Of a stretch of 64,000 nt of DNA, positions 15,148 through 22,623 are shown piece by piece. Both the position numbers and the translations under genes were made by a program. The notes beneath the pieces are model-generated. The model saw nothing but the letters and a program-made list of their open reading frames with translations. It was not told the origin of the DNA and ran no database searches. The stretch's first letter is position 1, and each line of letters opens with the position of its first letter. This stretch comes from Alphaproteobacteria bacterium (GTDB lineage: Bacteria > Pseudomonadota > Alphaproteobacteria > Reyranellales > Reyranellaceae). Location of the stretch: assembly GCA_017308235.1 (NCBI GenBank), contig JAFKFL010000014.1, positions 124,001 through 188,000 on the forward strand, read 5' to 3'.

Positions 15148-15261
15148 GCTGGCCTGCGCGCGAGGGTTGTGAGGGCACAATCATCCACAGACGGCTGAAG
15201 CGCATGACACCAAACGACCTCGGTGCCGAAACAAATGTTACGAGCGACTAGGGTATAGAGC

Positions 15262-15403
15262 GGGTGTCGGACGGGAGGGGTCCCGGTCGACAGCGTGATT
15301 GAGATTGGTGTGTGGGTTTCGCCCGGGCCGGGAAGCCAGGGCGGAGGGGGCTGCCAAGGGCGAAGGGGTTCGTCCTTGGCTGCCGCAAAACTTGGGGTGT
15401 CTC
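15262..15403 (+). ncRNA. Structured 5' leader RNA, copy 1
   Basis: This leader shares with 20329-20425 the block 'GGGAGGGGTC', a stem capped by loop GGGG (CGAA-GGGG-TTCG), and 'TTGGGGTGTCTCATG' (one G shorter in copy 2) running into a start codon. Here the stem is 12 bp (15353-15364 with 15369-15380, one G-U pair). In copy 2 the stem differs in sequence but still pairs. A TATA box (TATAGA, 15255) precedes both leaders at a similar distance. The class is not one I recognise. Confidence 0.55.
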
Positions 15404-15565
15404 ATGGCGTCGTTTGTTCGCGTGCCCGCGTGCGGCCGCGTGTCTCCGGCCGGTCAGGCCGGACTGCCTCTCTTCCATATGGTCCAGTTGGTCGCCCTGG
15501 CGACCTTGGTGATGCCGGTGCTGGCACGCGTCGCTTCTGCGACGACTGCCGGCATCGCGTTGTGA
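15404..15565 (+). CDS. Small hydrophobic protein (53 aa) after leader RNA
   Basis: The ATG sits exactly where the copy-2 leader starts its own small protein ('GTGTCTCATG'). The peptide has one membrane-type segment ('MVQLVALATLVMPVLA'). It does not resemble the protein of copy 2; that relative is encoded 10 bp further on. It may be a leader peptide or an unrelated small membrane protein. Coding status rests on position only. Confidence 0.4.
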   Translation: MASFVRVPACGRVSPAGQAGLPLFHMVQLVALATLVMPVLARVASATTAGIAL

Positions 15566-15575
15566 GGGCCGCATC

Positions 15576-15767
15576 ATGCGTCCCTTCGCAATCTTCGCGA
15601 TCTGGCTGACCACGGGCCTTATTCTTACCGGCCTGATCGCCGGCACACTGGAGCAGGTCGTCGTTCCGGGTGGAGCGCGGGACAGCGACCAGGCGGCAGC
15701 CTATGTGCCGCCGACCGCTGCGCCCTCGCAATTCTGGGCGAACCTGCAGCAACGCACCAATCACTAA
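15576..15767 (+). CDS. Small single-pass membrane protein, paralogue of 20426-20605
   Basis: 63 residues, 'MRPFAIFAIWLTTGLI' as a hydrophobic N-terminal segment, then 'LEQVVVPGG' and a Pro/Ala tail. It aligns along its length with the 59-aa protein at 20426 (MR.FAIF.IW...GL, .LEQV..P.G, Y.PP). Conservation at two loci, each behind the same leader RNA, argues that it is real. Function unknown. Confidence 0.65.
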   Translation: MRPFAIFAIWLTTGLILTGLIAGTLEQVVVPGGARDSDQAAAYVPPTAAPSQFWANLQQRTNH

Positions 15768-15779
15768 GGGGCGTCGCTG

Positions 15780-15799
15780 ACGTCCGTTGCAGCGGACGT
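15780..15799 (+). terminator. Hairpin after small membrane-protein genes
   Basis: A 7-bp stem (ACGTCCG with CGGACGT, loop TTGCAG) begins 12 bp after the stop codon. There is no U-tract, so terminator function is uncertain. Confidence 0.35.
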
Positions 15800-15951
15800 T
15801 GTCCCCGGCTTCTCCACAGAGAAGTGTCCGGTTGCGGTTGAACGTCGCAAGCCAGCGGGTCTCAATAACGGTGAGACCGCATAGACGGTAGGCGCGTGGC
15901 CGCCCCTCCCATTGCCACGCGACCAGGCAAGCGCACTTACCCCAATGAACT

Positions 15952-15983
15952 GGGAGCCCGGCCGATCGTGGTCCGGGCTTCCC
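15952..15983. terminator. Long GC-rich hairpin upstream of MgtC-like gene
   Basis: GGGAGCCCGG pairs with CCGGGCTTCCC (one bulge) around an 11-nt loop. It is the strongest hairpin in the 290-bp gap before 16062 and could end transcription from upstream. A run of T is absent on both strands. Confidence 0.35.
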
Positions 15984-16061
15984 CTGTTCCGCCGCCATTT
16001 CCCAGCCCCTTGTTTCGTTGGCATGACAAATAAATGAAACACAGGCCGGGTAGCTGGGGGC

Positions 16062-16766
16062 ATGACCCAGACCTACCTGCAGACCGCGCTCGACCTGGCG
16101 CTTGCCATTGCGCTTGGCGCGGCCATCGGCATCGAACGGCAGTGGCGCCAACGCCTGGCCGGACTCAGGACCAACACCCTGGTGTCGCTGGGGGCGGCGA
16201 GCTTCGTGCTGTTCGCAGGCCTCTATCCGGGCGAGGCGAGCCCGACGCGGATTGCGGCGCAGGTGGTGTCGGGCATCGGCTTCCTGGGCGCGGGCGTGAT
16301 CTTCAAGGAAGGGCTCAATGTCCGCGGCCTCAACACCGCTGCCACGCTCTGGTGCTCGGCCGCGGTCGGCCTGTTCGCCGGCGCGGGGGCGGTGTGGCCG
16401 GCGGTGATCGTGGCCACGGGCGTGGTGGGGGTGAACCTGCTGCTGCGGCCGCTGGTCGGGCTGATCAACCGCCAGCCGATCACGTCAGTCGAATCGGATC
16501 AGCAGTATGTCGTGAGCGTGGTCTGCCGCGGCAGTGACGAAGCGCATATCCGCGCCCTGATGTTCCAGGGCATCCATAGCGGGGACCTGCATCTGCGCGA
16601 GCTCGACAGCGTCGACATCGACGGCACAGACCGCGTGCAGGTCACGGCCTCCGTCACCGGCGCCGAGGCCAACAGCGCTGCGCTGGAGCAGATCGTGGGC
16701 CGGCTGAGCCTCGAAGCCTCCGTGACCGCCGCGCGCTGGCGGGTCGAAGAGCCCGCGCCAGCCTGA
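16062..16766 (+). CDS. MgtC/SapB-family membrane protein
   Basis: 234 residues. The N-terminal 140 residues carry the MgtC signature: 'ALGAAIGIERQW', 'GLRTNTLVSLGAASFVL', 'QVVSGIGFLGAGVIFKEG' and 'GLNTAATLWCSAAVGLFAG', within four or five membrane helices. The C-terminal 85 residues are a soluble ACT-like domain. MgtC proteins sit in the inner membrane and influence magnesium homeostasis and F-ATPase activity. It lies between the two leader-RNA loci; no magnesium sensor sequence was recognised upstream. Confidence 0.85.
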   Translation: MTQTYLQTALDLALAIALGAAIGIERQWRQRLAGLRTNTLVSLGAASFVLFAGLYPGEASPTRIAAQVVSGIGFLGAGVIFKEGLNVRGLNTAATLWCSAAVGLFAGAGAVWPAVIVATGVVGVNLLLRPLVGLINRQPITSVESDQQYVVSVVCRGSDEAHIRALMFQGIHSGDLHLRELDSVDIDGTDRVQVTASVTGAEANSAALEQIVGRLSLEASVTAARWRVEEPAPA

Positions 16767-16846
16767 CATCCCGGCGCGCCCTCCGACGAGGTATTGAAAG
16801 ACCGCCGGTTTTGGCGATCATTGGCGGGTCAGGTGAGGGGGACACC

Positions 16847-19800
16847 ATGACCAGGCGGGGGAGAGACAGTCGTCACGAGCGTAGTCCTTGGCGCTGGCCG
16901 CTTCCGGCCCTGCGCAAGGTTCGGCTGCGCACGTGGACAGTGCTGGCAATGATCATCTTTGCCGTGCTGGGTTCGGTGACCGCCTATCGTGGGGCGAAGA
17001 CCGAGCAAGACACCGTCGTGATTGCCGGGAAGCTGGCGCAAGGCCAGTTGATCGAAGTCGGAGAGCGGCAGCGGCTGCGTATCCAGACCGTTTCGTCGGC
17101 AGCCCTGTGGGCACGCCAGGCCGCCGTACGGCTGGAGGGTCGGGCGCTTATGAGCAGCGCCGCGCAGGCCCGAAAGGAGAAGCGTACGGAAGACGCGGCC
17201 TGGCTTGCCATGCGCGCGCACGAGGAGTTCGCCGCAGCTCGCGCCATCAAGCTGATCCGGGAAAATCTCGGACCGACGAGGCGCTCGCCCGACGAGGAGA
17301 ACAAGCTCGTGGCGGGCACGCTTGCCGAGCTGGGCTTTGGCACCTTTGTCCACTTCCAGGCGGCAGGGAGCACAGCTCGGGCAAAGGCGGAGGCCGCATC
17401 GTCGCATGCCGACGCCTGCCACAGATCGAACGGCGTAAGGCTCTCGCAGATCTGGTGCGAAACCCGCGAGCGGCTGGAGGAGCTGCACGAGCATGTACGG
17501 GTGTCGTCGCTCGGCGTCGCCCTGTTCGTGCTCGCGCTCACCTTCTTCACGGTCTCCGATGCGAGCGTGAGGACGCGGTGGCGGCGCCTCAAATGGGGCT
17601 TCTTCGCCGTCGGACTGTTGATGGGCGCGGTGGCGCCCGCCGTGGTCCTGATATGGGGCGACACGGCGTCCTGGCCGTATCTGCTGGGCGGCCTGGTTGC
17701 CACGCCACTGGTGTGGCTCGGTTTGCACTACGTCGTGGCTTATGCCGAACAGAAAGGCTGGATACATCCGGAGAAGCGCGAAGGCTCGATCCATTCCGAG
17801 GAGGTGATCTTCGAGCGCGCGGCGTTGCGCGCACCGGTGCTGGGCCATCACCTCGAGCATTGGTTCGGCGTCGTCACCATCGTCCTGATCGCCGTGACCG
17901 TGTTCGTGAGCGCCGCCGTCGGCTGGGGCTACAGCGTCGCCAATACTCGCGCCGACGCCGCCGCGGAGGATGCGCGCAACTCGGCGGCGGAGATGGTGAT
18001 CCGCACCGCTGAGTTCTCCGCCCTTCAGACCGATCTGGCCCGCGAGGTCGCAGCCGGCATCGAGCGTCGTTTTCGGCTGGGCCTCGCCAACCAGCGAGGA
18101 CAGCTCTCCGGGTCCGACGAGTCCATCAAGAGCCGGCACGACGACGAGGAGGCGCGCCATTCCAACGCGCTGCGCACCTTCAGGCCGCAGTTCGACGATA
18201 TCAACGAGGTCATCGATCTGAAGGACCTCAATGTTGAAGACGATCCGCGCTTTCCCAACCGGCTGCTGTGGCAGTTCCCGCGCGTGCCGGTGATCGAGTC
18301 GCGGCCCCAGGACGAGCAGGAGCGTGCCGGGTTCGAGAATTACGAGCGCAAGAAGAGAAGCCGCAACGCCTACGAGGCCTTCGCCCTGTGGGACCTCGAG
18401 AGCGGTGAGAGCGTCGCGTGGCGTAACGTCGCCTCCAGCCTGCTGGCGGGCCTCATGGTCTTCGCCATCGCGCTCTATTTCCTGGGCCAGGCGCTCGCCA
18501 TGGAGCCGACGCGCAGCGGCTATGTGTTGCTGGCGGCCGGCATCGCGTTCGTCGGCGTTGGCGTCGGTTCGAGCATGGTGTCGGCCTATCCGATGATCGG
18601 GTTGGCCAACTTCGCAGGCACGACGCCTCGGGCGATCGAAGCGGTGCTGTCGGAGTACAACTGCCCCGCCGTCTATTCAGTCCATGACAGTCCGGACAGG
18701 CGGCGTGAGCTGGCCGCCTACTTCTATTCGGTCGGGACGGCGCTGGGAGACAATTATTCCGACGACATCGACCTCGAGCGGGCACAGCATTACCTTGGCT
18801 GCGCCGTCGCGCTGAACGAAGAATTTGTTCTTGCGCGACTGAAACTGGCGAGCGTCCAGTCATTGCTGCGCTCACTCGACTTCATCGAACCCTATACAAG
18901 CTTGCCGGAGCGCAGCAAGGTGCGCAGCAGACCGGAACTGGCCGAGGCGCAGGACCTGCTGCAGCAATCCCGTCTCGATCTCTCCGCCGGCCAGCGCAAC
19001 TCGCTCTCTTTCCGCGTCGCGTTCAACGGCCTGATTGCGCAGGAAGAGGAGGCCCTGAAGCTGGCGGACAAGATCGCCCAGGAGGCGCTGGACCTGGTGA
19101 AGGGCGGCAAGATCCTGGCCCGCGCCGACACCGAGGGAATGCTCAACTTCAATCTCGGTTTTGTCCGGCTGGCGCGCGGCCAGTTCGACGACGGGCGCCG
19201 GGCGTACCAGGCCGGCCGCGAGGTCGGAGTGGACGATGATTTGCGCGCATCGGCGCTTACCGATCTCGAGATACTGTGGTCGCTTCGCTGCGCAGGCGGC
19301 AAACCGCCGGCCGGGAGCACGTTTGACTGCCCGGGCCTCGGCAGCGCCATCACCGATATCCGGCAGACCGTGCTCGTCAAGAAGCCCGATGGGAATATAC
19401 CGGCCACGGTGCAGCCGTTGCCGAAAGGCGATTTTGAGGCCAGGGCGACGGCCAATCACCTGGTCGTGCAGGTGCGCGGCGTCGATCCCGCGGTGGACGA
19501 TCTGTGGCTGGTATGGTCGAGGCTGGAGCCTGATTGGGGCTCGTGGCGGACGATGCAGGAGCTCTCTCGACCGATTGCGGTGCCGCGCCAGAATGACGAG
19601 ACGACCGCCATGAGTTCGGGCACGGTCAGGGTGGCGCGCTCCTATCTTCGCTCCTATTGGGGCGTGAAAAGTTGTCTCACCAAAGGTCGCTACCGCGTCA
19701 CGCTCTATTCGCACGGCAGGCAGATCGCGGTACGCGACGATATCGTGCGCTCGACGCCGGGAATGAAGCCTGCGCGCTTCCCCGAGCTCAACCTCGAACT

Positions 19801-20236
19801 CTGCATGCCCGCCGACTGGAGCGTGATCCCGGAGCAGGCGGCGCCAACCCTGCAGCGGAGCAGCTACGGTATCGTTCGCCGCGTCATGAACGGCGCCGAG
19901 ATGCCAGCGGCCTTCCTTTTCAGCTTCTACGTACCGACCGAAGCCGACGGCCTCGCGTCCTGCCTGGTGCCCGGCAACGACGTCCGCTGCGCCTACCGCG
20001 CGCTTGTGTCCCTCAAGATGATCAACGGCGACGAGCCGCTCGCCGCCTTCGAGAAGATGTCCGACTCGCTCGATCGCCGCGCCCTGGTGTATCGGACCTG
20101 GACGTCACAGGACGGCGGCGTGCATGTCGTCCTCGCCCGGGCGGATGCGGGTTCGCGCGAGCAGTTGTGGGACCTGCTCGAGTCGGCCGAGGTGATCTAC
20201 GCCGAGAACGATATCGAGACGACGGCGCAAAAATAG
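16847..20236 (+). CDS. Large multi-pass membrane protein with TPR-like and soluble C-terminal regions
   Basis: 1129 residues. Hydrophobic segments near residues 20-40, 220-240, 245-295, 345-370, 530-550 and 555-580 suggest an inner-membrane protein with a large periplasmic loop in the middle. Residues about 600-830 have helical-repeat character ('LNFNLGFVRLARGQFDDGRRAYQAGREVG' region looks TPR-like). The last 280 residues form a separate globular part with paired Cys. I do not recognise the family. The ATG at 16847 has a purine-rich AGGTGAGGGGGA stretch just upstream. Confidence 0.6.
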   Translation: MTRRGRDSRHERSPWRWPLPALRKVRLRTWTVLAMIIFAVLGSVTAYRGAKTEQDTVVIAGKLAQGQLIEVGERQRLRIQTVSSAALWARQAAVRLEGRALMSSAAQARKEKRTEDAAWLAMRAHEEFAAARAIKLIRENLGPTRRSPDEENKLVAGTLAELGFGTFVHFQAAGSTARAKAEAASSHADACHRSNGVRLSQIWCETRERLEELHEHVRVSSLGVALFVLALTFFTVSDASVRTRWRRLKWGFFAVGLLMGAVAPAVVLIWGDTASWPYLLGGLVATPLVWLGLHYVVAYAEQKGWIHPEKREGSIHSEEVIFERAALRAPVLGHHLEHWFGVVTIVLIAVTVFVSAAVGWGYSVANTRADAAAEDARNSAAEMVIRTAEFSALQTDLAREVAAGIERRFRLGLANQRGQLSGSDESIKSRHDDEEARHSNALRTFRPQFDDINEVIDLKDLNVEDDPRFPNRLLWQFPRVPVIESRPQDEQERAGFENYERKKRSRNAYEAFALWDLESGESVAWRNVASSLLAGLMVFAIALYFLGQALAMEPTRSGYVLLAAGIAFVGVGVGSSMVSAYPMIGLANFAGTTPRAIEAVLSEYNCPAVYSVHDSPDRRRELAAYFYSVGTALGDNYSDDIDLERAQHYLGCAVALNEEFVLARLKLASVQSLLRSLDFIEPYTSLPERSKVRSRPELAEAQDLLQQSRLDLSAGQRNSLSFRVAFNGLIAQEEEALKLADKIAQEALDLVKGGKILARADTEGMLNFNLGFVRLARGQFDDGRRAYQAGREVGVDDDLRASALTDLEILWSLRCAGGKPPAGSTFDCPGLGSAITDIRQTVLVKKPDGNIPATVQPLPKGDFEARATANHLVVQVRGVDPAVDDLWLVWSRLEPDWGSWRTMQELSRPIAVPRQNDETTAMSSGTVRVARSYLRSYWGVKSCLTKGRYRVTLYSHGRQIAVRDDIVRSTPGMKPARFPELNLELCMPADWSVIPEQAAPTLQRSSYGIVRRVMNGAEMPAAFLFSFYVPTEADGLASCLVPGNDVRCAYRALVSLKMINGDEPLAAFEKMSDSLDRRALVYRTWTSQDGGVHVVLARADAGSREQLWDLLESAEVIYAENDIETTAQK

Positions 20237-20328
20237 CGGCGTCGCTGTCCCGCCTCCTGTTGCAATTGATACAAAACACGACCGCTCACGACACAATCAA
20301 TACCGGCGATTGGGCTATACGACGGGCG

Positions 20329-20425
20329 TGCCGATGGGAGGGGTCTCATCGGCCGTTAATGTGGGTGCCGGCAGAAAAGAGCGAAGGGGTTCGCTCCGGG
20401 AGCCGGTGGGAAAATTGGGTGTCTC
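20329..20425 (+). ncRNA. Structured 5' leader RNA, copy 2
   Basis: Hairpin 1: CCGATG/CATCGG at 20331-20352, loop containing GGAGGGGTCT. Hairpin 2: GAGCGAA-GGGG-TTCGCTC at 20379-20396, inside an outer CCGGC/GCCGG stem (20368-20406). It ends 'TTGGGTGTCTCATG' at the small gene's start. Compared with copy 1 the loops (GGGG, GGGAGGGGTC) are invariant while stem bases change and remain paired. A TATACG box precedes it. Confidence 0.6.
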
Positions 20426-20605
20426 ATGCGTCTCTTCGCCATTTTTTCGATCTGGATCATCGCCGGCCTCTGCGCGACCAGCGCGCTGTCCTCCACCATG
20501 GAGCAGGTCCTGACGCCGGCCGGTAACAGTGCCGAGTCGACGGCCTATGCGCCGCCGGCGCTGACCTCGATGAACTTCGCCGACCAGGTTCATCGCAGGT
20601 CCTAA
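20426..20605 (+). CDS. Small single-pass membrane protein (59 aa), paralogue of 15576-15767
   Basis: Begins 'MRLFAIFSIWIIAGL' (one membrane segment), then 'STMEQVLTPAG' and a Pro/Ala-rich tail. It aligns with the 63-aa protein at 15576 and is preceded by the same leader RNA. The gene is too short for usual ORF filters but is supported by the duplication. A terminator-like hairpin follows 22 bp after the stop. Function unknown. Confidence 0.65.
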   Translation: MRLFAIFSIWIIAGLCATSALSSTMEQVLTPAGNSAESTAYAPPALTSMNFADQVHRRS

Positions 20606-20673: not shown

Positions 20674-20713
20674 TTGACGCTGCGCTTCCCAACTTCCGCA
20701 TATCGCGGATATG
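20674..20713 (+). promoter_or_regulatory. Phage late-gene control region before terS (copy A)
   Basis: TTGACG at 20674 could be a -35 box. 'TTCCCAACTTCC' and a hairpin CCGC-ATATC-GCGG (20696-20708) directly precede the terS ATG. The same arrangement recurs before the portal gene at 45204-45262, with hairpin CCCC-ATTTA-GGGG: stem bases differ but pair in both, and the 12-mer between is identical. The hairpin could block ribosome access or bind a regulator. Confidence 0.6.
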
Positions 20714-21172
20714 GCGAAGCGCAAACCAGGACGACCTGTTCAGTTCACATCGGTGATCGCATCGGCGATCTGCACGCGGCTCGCCGCGGGCGAGACGCTG
20801 CGTGCGATCTGCCGTGACCGGTCGCTGCCCGCCGAGGAGGTGGTGCGTGGCTGGGTGATCGACCGGCCGGCTTTCGCGGCGGCGTTCAAGCGCGCGCGTG
20901 AGATCGGCTACGCCACGCTCGCCGACCAGATCCTCGAGATCGCCGACGATGCCTCGGCCGACAGCTATGTCGACGACAAGGGCAAGCCGCGCGCCGACGC
21001 CGAGGCGATCCAGCGCTCGCGGCTGCGCATCGAGACGCGCAAGTGGCTGCTCATGAAGGTCCTGCCGCGCGTGTGGGGCGACAAGCCCGACACGGATGCC
21101 GCCAACGGCACGTTCCCACTGGAGGCGCTCGTGATCGGCAGCTTCAAGCCCAAATCGGAGCCCGACAAATGA
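20711..21172 (+). CDS. terS: Phage terminase small subunit
   Basis: 153 residues. The N-terminus is a helix-turn-helix-like DNA-recognition part ('SVIASAICTRLAAGETLRAI', then 'RDRSLPAEEVVRGWV'). The middle has the family pattern 'AFAAAFKRAREIGYATLADQ' and 'RSRLRIETRKWLLMKVLPRVWGDK', common in small terminase proteins of short-tailed phages. It selects phage DNA for packaging. Its stop overlaps the terL start by 4 bp (ATGA). Confidence 0.85.
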   Translation: MAKRKPGRPVQFTSVIASAICTRLAAGETLRAICRDRSLPAEEVVRGWVIDRPAFAAAFKRAREIGYATLADQILEIADDASADSYVDDKGKPRADAEAIQRSRLRIETRKWLLMKVLPRVWGDKPDTDAANGTFPLEALVIGSFKPKSEPDK

Positions 21173-22623
21173 AAGCCCAAGCCCTGAGCCGTGCCGAAGG
21201 GCCTGCCCTGAGCCGTGCCGAAGGGGCGGCCGACAAGATCCGTCTATGGCGCGAGAAACCGCAGGTGTTCGTGCGCGAGGTCTTGGGCGTCACGCCCGAC
21301 GCCTGGCAGGACGAGGTGCTGGCCGCCTTCCCGCATCGCCAGCGGCTGGCGATGAAAGCCTGCAGGGGACCGGGCAAGACCGCGGTGGAGGCGTGGCTGG
21401 GGTGGAACTTCCTGCTGACGCGGCCGCAGCCCAAGATCGCCGCGGCCTCGATCTCATCCGACAATCTCGCCGACAATCTCTGGGCCGAGATGGCGAAGTG
21501 GCGCCAGCGATCGCCGCTCCTGCGTCAGACGTTCGAATGGACCCAAAGCCGGATCTTTGCGCGCGAGTATCCCGAGACCTGGTGGATGTCGGCGCGCTCG
21601 TGGACGCGCAGCGCCGACAGCCAGACACAGGGCCAAACGCTGGCGGGCCTGCATGCCGACTACATCCTGTTCATCCTCGACGAATCGGGCGGCATTCCCG
21701 ACGCGGTGATGGCCTCGGCCGAGGCCGCACTCGCAAGCTGCGTCGAGGGCCACATCGTGCAGGCCGGCAACCCGACGCATCTCGAGGGGCCGCTGTGGCG
21801 CGCCTGCACGTCGGAGCGTGCACTGTGGCATCTCACCGAGATCACCGCCGATCCCGACGATCCCAAACGGACACCGCGTGTAAAAGCCGAGTGGGCGCTC
21901 GAGCAGATCCAGAAGTACGGCCGCGACAATCCGTGGGTGCTGGTGAACGTGTTCGGCCGCTTTCCACCGGGCTCACTCAATGCGTTGATTGGGCCGGACG
22001 AGATCGCCGATGCGATGGAGCGGCGCTACGAGGCCGCGACCTACAGCGAGGCCGCGCGCGTGCTGGGCGTCGATGTCGCGCGCTTCGGCGACGATGCCTC
22101 GGTGATCTTCCCGCGCCAGGGCCTAAACGCCTTTCCGCCGGTGCGGCTGCGCAACCTCGACGGCCCGCAGGGCGCGGGCGCTGTGGCGCGGACCTGGAGG
22201 GACTGGGAGGCCGACGCGGTGTTCATCGACGACACCGGCGGCTTTGGCGCGGCCTGGATCGACAATCTCCGCCTGCTCGGCCGTTCGCCGATCGGCGTCG
22301 GCTTCGCGCAATCGGCCAACTCAGCGAAGTACGCCAACAAGCGCGCGGAGATGTATTTCGAGGCGGTCGAATGGATCAAGGCGGGCGGCGCGCTGCCGGG
22401 GCGCAACACGCCCGGCCTCGCCGAGCTTGCCGCCGCGCTGACGCAGACCACCTACAGCTTCCGCGGCGACCAGCTCCTGCTCGAGCCCAAGGAGCAAGTG
22501 AAGGCGAAGCTCGGCTACTCGCCCGACGACGCCGACGCCTTCGCGCTCACCTTCGCGCAGCCGGTCCTGAAGCAATGGACCCGCGCCGTCGATCTCTCGC
22601 GCCTGAGGCGGGGGATCGTATAG
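21169..22623 (+). CDS. terL: Phage terminase large subunit
   Basis: 484 residues. The Walker A-like motif is 'ACRGPGKTAVEAW', Walker B with catalytic acid is 'YILFILDESGGIPD', and the C-terminal RNase H-like nuclease starts at 'VLGVDVARFGDDASVI', with later acidic residues in 'FIDDTGGFGA' and 'SPDDADAFALTF'. It is the packaging motor ATPase and nuclease. An oddity is near the N-terminus: 'ALSRAEGP' followed by 'ALSRAEG', produced by a 24-bp tandem repeat (21182-21225) of a short palindromic repeat inserted in frame. The portal gene, normally next, is 22.6 kb away. Confidence 0.92.
   Translation: MKAQALSRAEGPALSRAEGAADKIRLWREKPQVFVREVLGVTPDAWQDEVLAAFPHRQRLAMKACRGPGKTAVEAWLGWNFLLTRPQPKIAAASISSDNLADNLWAEMAKWRQRSPLLRQTFEWTQSRIFAREYPETWWMSARSWTRSADSQTQGQTLAGLHADYILFILDESGGIPDAVMASAEAALASCVEGHIVQAGNPTHLEGPLWRACTSERALWHLTEITADPDDPKRTPRVKAEWALEQIQKYGRDNPWVLVNVFGRFPPGSLNALIGPDEIADAMERRYEAATYSEAARVLGVDVARFGDDASVIFPRQGLNAFPPVRLRNLDGPQGAGAVARTWRDWEADAVFIDDTGGFGAAWIDNLRLLGRSPIGVGFAQSANSAKYANKRAEMYFEAVEWIKAGGALPGRNTPGLAELAAALTQTTYSFRGDQLLLEPKEQVKAKLGYSPDDADAFALTFAQPVLKQWTRAVDLSRLRRGIV
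21182..21225 (+). repeat. Two tandem copies of a short palindromic repeat inside terL
   Basis: CCCTGAGCCGTGCCGAAGGG occurs twice, 4 bp apart. Each copy is near-palindromic and adds an in-frame 8-residue unit to the terminase N-terminus. Similar sequence lies at 53210-53252 and at 61452-61475. Confidence 0.7.

Follow-up and report, generated by a model that had tools for sequence, protein, structure and literature searches.

Two places in a 64-kb stretch of a Reyranella genome put a pair of G-rich hairpins ahead of a very small hydrophobic ORF. What are these elements, and what might read them? The stretch, called the window below, comprises 64,000 nucleotides of a 6.3-Mb genome (G000:C1:124001-188000), and its two copies are designated W1 (leader 1) and W2 (leader 2). 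They almost certainly represent a real, covarying RNA element restricted to one genus. Both would be copies of a single genus-specific mRNA leader, for which we propose a tentative mode of action.

Architecture of the two window leaders

In both leaders the same parts follow one another in the same order (Table 1). A TATA box precedes hairpin H1; a UGUGGG linker leads from there to hairpin H2, after which come UUGGGG or UUGGG and, six bases further 3', the AUG. The H1 core reads GGGA-GGGG-UCYC on its stem, and the GGGG loop of H2 is closed by GAA/UUC, giving each leader two GGGG-capped hairpins. The initial annotation had pointed to three sequences kept by both copies, namely GGGAGGGGTC, a CGAA-GGGG-TTCG cap and a TTGGG(G)-type sequence. 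All three are present, the last as TTGGGGTGTCTCATG and TTGGGTGTCTCATG, and GGGAGGGGTC forms the apex of a separate hairpin, H1. The 12-bp stem described in copy 1 and the 7-bp stem in copy 2 were borne out, while the outer stem of copy 2 (P3) has 6 bp rather than the 5 claimed. The 63- and 59-aa proteins are indeed paralogous (39% identical), and a MgtC-family gene does lie between the copies. One assignment had to be corrected: leader 1 does not stand directly ahead of the 63-aa gene, as its ATG at 15404 opens a 53-aa ORF and the 63-aa gene begins at 15576.

Perfect GGGG-capped stems of at least 6 bp occur four times on the + strand of the 64-kb window, three times inside the leaders, and never on the - strand. 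That three of the four fall in leaders, and that a model of four copies matches further genomes, argues that the leader hairpins are beyond chance. In the window copies H2 is trailed by AAAACUUGGGG or AAAAUUGGG, and we found no terminator hairpin with a U run of the kind a transcription attenuator would have.

Table 1. Leader features and adjoining ORFs, in window coordinates
Feature	Position	Strand	Evidence
Promoter/operator, leader 1: TGACACCAA-N14-GAAAC-N4-GTTAC-N12-TATA	15205..15257	+	promoter pattern, 0 mismatches; alignments
H1, leader 1: loop GGGG 15277-15280, inner stem CGGGA/TCCCG, A.G mismatch, outer stem	15266..15291	+	stem scan; H1 covariation
Conserved linker TGTGTGG, leader 1	15309..15315	+	alignment
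H2, leader 1: 12 bp, loop GGGG 15365-15368	15353..15380	+	stem scan; covariation; loop count
TTGGGG, leader 1: ribosome-binding position, 6 nt 5' of ATG	15392..15397	+	sequence; motif count
53-aa ORF immediately 3' of leader 1, remotely similar to the small selA-linked protein	15404..15565	+	ORF list; tblastn
63-aa small membrane-type protein, second ORF 3' of leader 1	15576..15767	+	ORF list; dN/dS 0.59 versus G002 counterpart
Promoter/operator, leader 2: TGATACAAA-N14-GACAC-N4-AATAC-N12-TATA	20267..20319	+	promoter pattern, 0 mismatches
H1, leader 2: 10 bp, loop GGGG 20340-20343	20330..20353	+	stem scan; H1 covariation
Linker TGTGGG, leader 2	20360..20365	+	sequence
Outer stem P3 around H2, leader 2: 20367-20372 pairs with 20402-20407	20367..20407	+	stem scan; covariation
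H2, leader 2: 7 bp, loop GGGG 20386-20389	20379..20396	+	stem scan; covariation; loop count
TTGGG, leader 2: ribosome-binding position, 6 nt 5' of ATG	20415..20419	+	sequence; motif count
59-aa small membrane-type protein directly 3' of leader 2	20426..20605	+	ORF list; dN/dS 0.28 versus G002 counterpart

Among the neighbouring genes, the 1141-aa ORF at 16811-20236 (+) gave no Pfam match at E 1 or better and has a 1130-aa relative in genome G002. Two ORFs 3' of leader 2, at 20711-22623 (+), resemble what we take to be phage terminase subunits; NCBIfam returned no match, and relatives lie near a leader remnant in G015.

Distribution and covariation of the element

A covariance model of four leaders, two each from G000 and G002 (R1), yielded further copies within the genus. 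A second model, built on the 3' part of 17 copies (R2), gave 29 matches, none with an E-value above 4.6e-9, spread over 25 of the 65 genomes of the genus, which record titles point to as Reyranella; these are the strong copies referred to below. When 385 genomes sampled from the class were searched, G000 alone had a strong match and no convincing copy appeared outside the genus, the candidates in G435 (E 0.012) and G099 (E 0.048) being judged chance on inspection of their sequences. A pattern scan of a wider contig collection returned 32 contigs, of which 19 contain matches of at least 50 bits (20 matches); nine carry Reyranella in their titles, and the rest were matched to genus members, in part by identical score. 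They include Reyranella soli, R. massiliensis and Enhydrobacter aerosaccus ATCC 27094. The other 13 contigs scored at most 27.1 bits (L118, 24.4 bits; L134, 23.4 bits) or had no match. Records titled Asaia bogorensis (L131, CAMDCE010000004.1) and Enhydrobacter aerosaccus (L145, NZ_FUWJ01000016.1) bear the leader, and both group within the genus (G083 and G010). The further covarying copies that the initial annotation had expected from such a search across Alphaproteobacteria therefore exist, but all strong ones belong to one genus.

Simpler searches were noisier or narrower. The pattern TATA-N-GGGAGGGGTC occurs at 37 places and its reversed control at 7. Occurrences in G007 (two), G026, G025, G077 (the first) and G078 resemble ordinary ribosome sites of other genes and were rejected, and two overlapping places on G076:C159 were left out of the inspection. 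The R1 matches L019, L024 and L025 were excluded as leaders, L025 having the common 3' end alone, as was the place first assigned in L020, where the true leader is slightly displaced. Relatives of the 59-aa protein are confined to G000 and G002 among 61 genomes, with none in the wider contig collection, so that by protein search alone it would seem an orphan; the RNA models showed otherwise. None of the 4,227 Rfam models matched a window leader at its gathering score; the sole family found in the window lies elsewhere, a cobalamin riboswitch (RF00174, 28252-28435 (+), 124.1 bits). Seven leader loci gave three weak Rfam matches, all under gathering and none credible. The element is not described in the accessible portions of the open-licence literature searched, which included PMC8124441, PMC5322559 and PMC13188914; judged by titles and the opening lines of abstracts, 15 of the 409 papers that mention Reyranella are mostly community surveys.

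The proposal of fixed loops on compensating stems gained support from covariation in P3/H2 and in the outer stem of H1. Across 29 copies aligned by fitting to the model, 96.0% of P3 and H2 cells are paired and 8 of 15 pairs show double-sided changes, in 27 cells; shuffled alignments gave 9.8 such cells, and none of 500 reached the observed number. Pairing fell to 51% or less when the partners were slid. A MAFFT alignment of 17 copies, used as a check, gave 95.4% pairing, with 7 of 15 pairs and 16 cells doubly changed (5.7 when shuffled). The H1 outer stem was assessed on 30 loop-anchored, gapless copies gathered with a pattern in which the inner letters are preset: 34 cells are doubly changed, against 16.5 in shuffles, and 74% are paired, against 65%, neither value being reached in 1,000 shuffles. 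The number of outer-stem pairs with double changes is not unusual (7 versus 6.1; 367 of 1,000 shuffles). The five inner pairs are near-invariant in these 30 copies and give the test little power; in G073 an inner pair is altered on both sides (CGGGA/UCCCG to CAGGA/UCCUG).

The loops themselves hardly vary. Among the 29 copies, selected on their 3' part alone, 28 have GGGG as the H1 loop. GGGG is also present in 28 of 29 H2 loops, being missing from copy A of G002, and TTGGGG in 27 of 29 copies. Folding of 17 leaders predicts that GGGG is open wherever a loop contains it, with unpaired probabilities of 0.88-1.0 in H1 (16 of 16) and 0.76-1.0 in H2 (16 of 16); UUGGGG is predicted to be partly open (0.11-0.83) and the AUG mostly open (0.40-0.99). 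A G-quadruplex leader was rejected, four G3 tracts with loops of 1-7 being found in just 3 of the 17.

Promoter, selA linkage and small proteins

Upstream of the leader lies a rigidly spaced pattern, TGANACNAA-N14-GAMAC-N4-RWTAC-N12-TATA. With up to two mismatches it occurs at 33 sites in 28 of 65 genomes, the reversed control giving 0, and it was found at all 29 strong copies; the pattern was derived from 18 copies, whose sites are for that reason not independent. The four remaining sites are a contig-end leader in G070, the G077 leader, a G015 leader without its start region, and a second place in G070. The last was found by the promoter alone and continues with a hairpin loop CGGGGAA, TGTGGGG, GTTGGGGGG and an unrelated 35-aa hydrophobic ORF. 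A sequence model of the promoter (R3) built from 32 of the 33 sites scores all 32 at E 1.6e-8 or better, as it must by construction, and added G002 copy B (7.3e-6) and a promoter remnant in G015 (2.3e-4). In the alignment H1 starts no more than about 10-20 nt from the -10 box. Judging by this conserved promoter, the leader is presumably transcribed.

The left half of the promoter (TTGATACCAA) has weaker matches at other loci, which suggests that the activator may have more targets; of 18 inspected, seven precede a 71-85 aa protein and nine a terminator-like stretch. The latter comprise the half-operator AACAATTGATACCAA, a conserved stretch that is perhaps a small RNA gene, and a terminator-like hairpin with a T run (L236-L242, L244 and L245, from G034, G026, G033, G065, G061, G028, G014, G016 and G030), followed by an ORF that we assume to be acetyltransferase-like. 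The same half-operator also stands 5' of a conserved small membrane-type protein (MRFLLGW..., 71-85 aa) at L243 and L246-L251.

In all 25 leader genomes one copy lies 219-375 nt upstream of a selA match, on the same contig and strand. Such copies make up 25 of the 29 strong ones, the other four being W1, W2 and their G002 counterparts. The window copies are thus extra ones, common to one other species, and a third copy in G000 precedes selA. G002 retains the window layout, with two leaders, small ORFs, a 236-aa ORF of MgtC size and the 1130-aa relative of the 1141-aa ORF. The suggestion of ion or magnesium stress, made from the neighbouring MgtC, is accordingly left unsupported: mgtC adjoins the window-type loci only. 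In the two loci checked by profile selB lies 3' of selA. A TGA-split gene upstream in L031 encodes the formate dehydrogenase-N alpha subunit, and the same split gene occurs in L032 and L034. tRNASec was found in 11 of 12 loci, all except the window-type one of G002; a tRNASec-sensing (T-box-like) leader was considered and dropped for want of a lead.

selA is present in 60 of 65 genus genomes, and 35 of these lack a strong leader. We inspected the stretch upstream of selA in 34 of the 35, leaving out G069. Twenty-eight stretches, a few of them cut by contig ends, carry no trace of the module, which is therefore dispensable for selA. The other six hold partial or altered forms: G077 has H1 and a 50-aa ORF with no GGGG hairpin H2; G025 has the leader 3' end and a 43-aa ORF with no H1; G082 has an ORF tail at a contig end; and in G023, G004 and G066 the version is shorter, with a different hairpin and ORFs of 32-34 aa. 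This hairpin is a perfect GGGG-loop stem of 8 bp in G023 and 9 bp in G004, with a longer G run in G066. Given the GGGG lost from H2 in G002 copy A, the missing H2 in G077 and the missing H1 in G025, the loops are not all indispensable. The selA gene itself, which has a GTG start, is preceded by TTGGGG or TGGGGA (e.g. L066, L065 and L067) in 10 of 18 leader genomes versus 1 of 20 others, counting the genomes in which a pattern located the start (18 of 25 and 20 of 34). Perhaps this reflects shared control, perhaps relatedness; as close relatedness may explain it, we do not count it as evidence.

In 28 of the 29 copies the ORF opened by the leader ATG is 33-61 aa long and includes a hydrophobic stretch (best 19-residue hydropathy 1.89-2.29), the exception being G002 copy A with 23 aa. 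Purifying selection acts on the selA-linked proteins, with dN/dS of 0.15-0.70 in 42 pairs from 13 sequences. In a tblastn search of our own small set, the 53-aa ORF of leader 1 resembled the small selA-linked protein of G002 (E 5.7e-5, 35% of 51 aa); that its G002 counterpart has just 23 aa suggests that this first ORF may be decaying. A profile search of five of the small proteins placed no family above its cut-off, and identity with Flp/Fap pilins was rejected, the PF04964 model having three above-cut-off places in G000 and none at the leaders. In G034 (L045, 7470-7913 (-)) a 136-aa exported-looking protein follows AAAACTTGGGGTCTATCATATG, akin to the leader 3' end, with neither H1 nor a GGGG H2.

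A candidate mechanism and its alternatives

We tentatively favor, with slightly less than even confidence, the view that the leader regulates in cis and that a putative trans factor, by reading its GGGG loops and its UUGGGG ribosome site, controls translation. The leader would be transcribed from the rigidly spaced, probably activator-dependent promoter and would govern translation of a small one-helix membrane-type protein. H1 would mark the predicted 5' end, H2 would sit close to the start codon, and each would expose a GGGG closed by an A-U pair. That GGGG is found in both loops and once more in UUGGGG suggests that a single factor contacts several places per leader. This candidate, a non-CsrA RNA-binding protein or, equally possibly, a C-rich small RNA, would dock on the loops and cover UUGGGG, making translation of the small protein depend on it; the direction of control is a guess, and no candidate factor was found. 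Weighing against this reading are the partial opening predicted for UUGGGG, the copies that have lost a GGGG loop or hairpin, and the 28 selA upstream stretches that show nothing of the module. The GGGG plan draws support from the shortened G023 and G004 versions, which keep a GGGG hairpin on a different stem, and the idea of a module from the promoter-only G070 site, with the same plan ahead of its unrelated ORF. A wider reading seems possible but rather unlikely: a post-transcriptional regulon in which a CsrA-independent factor recognizes A-GGGG-U loops and UUGGGG and, with a dedicated activator, couples sequence-unrelated tiny membrane proteins to the selenocysteine machinery. Under it, promoter and leader form a module that can be put in front of new small proteins, with the window and G070 as examples.

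Other explanations fit parts of these data. A riboswitch, in which a small molecule of formate, selenium or molybdenum metabolism switches translation with no protein or RNA partner, would suit the conserved loops and TGTGTGG linker on varying stems, the steady selA linkage, and the selB, tRNASec and selenocysteine formate dehydrogenase genes nearby in the examined loci. We nonetheless think it unlikely, as the most conserved letters, being GGGG repeats on hairpins that stand apart, do not make up a single joined pocket, the contexts of G070 and of three window-type copies are unrelated to sel genes, and the leaders match no Rfam riboswitch. The start of H1 so near the -10 box, and the likeness that we see between the loops AGGGG and AAGGGG and a Shine-Dalgarno sequence, would also agree with a 5' hairpin that protects the transcript and G-rich loops that hold the 30S subunit, with no specific regulator. 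Such a stabilizer or standby site appears distinctly unlikely, leaving unexplained both the loop letters, which for each hairpin are conserved in all but one of 29 copies, and the dedicated promoter.

Two further models borrow from known systems. Small hydrophobic proteins encoded after structured leaders, unrelated protein sequences sharing one leader plan, and a narrow distribution recall type I toxins such as tisB, in which a toxic or depolarizing protein is kept at low translation by the leader and an antisense RNA; the fixed place before selA in all 25 genomes is unlike a mobile toxin module and renders this improbable. SECIS-like control, with SelB binding the hairpins and repressing downstream genes as reportedly happens at the E. 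coli selAB leader, would fit the position before selA, the SelB encoded downstream and the A-U-closed tetraloop that the fdnG SECIS of the genus likewise has. Yet that SECIS loop is GUCU in three of three genomes, against GGGG in the leader, and the window and G070 copies are not adjacent to sel genes, so we regard such control as highly improbable.

If the favored reading of a factor-read leader is true, the element would found a new family of leader RNAs: its promoter is defined, its loop code is simple and its association with selA is clear, all of which make the mechanism directly testable. It also points to a previously unstudied, very small membrane-type protein encoded beside the selenocysteine synthesis genes.

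In leaders controlled by CsrA or RsmE a short G-rich motif recurs, both in the loops of hairpins and over the ribosome site, a pattern that the Reyranella leader follows. The Reyranella motif is GGGG (28 of 29 H1 loops, and within 28 of 29 H2 loops), whereas theirs is GGA, and csrA (PF02599) occurs in 1 of 65 genus genomes, G016, itself without a strong leader. We therefore rejected CsrA control and place the leader outside the Csr/Rsm family. The E. coli selAB leader, reported to carry a SECIS-like hairpin (Thanbichler and Boeck 2002), is similarly a hairpin leader ahead of selA-selB; in Reyranella a small ORF intervenes, the GGGG hairpins number two, and their loop is unlike that of the organism's own SECIS. 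With the mRNAs of tisB and other type I toxins, as described in the accessible parts of PMC7708055 and PMC7667032, the element shares a structured leader followed by a very small hydrophobic protein; unlike them it is stably placed before selA, and no antisense RNA is known. The terms selA and formate dehydrogenase are absent from the accessible parts of two texts on orphan structured-RNA motifs (PMC2864571 and PMC11109978), and it is these motifs, as far as those parts describe them, that the leader resembles in its conserved loops, covarying stems and fixed gene association.
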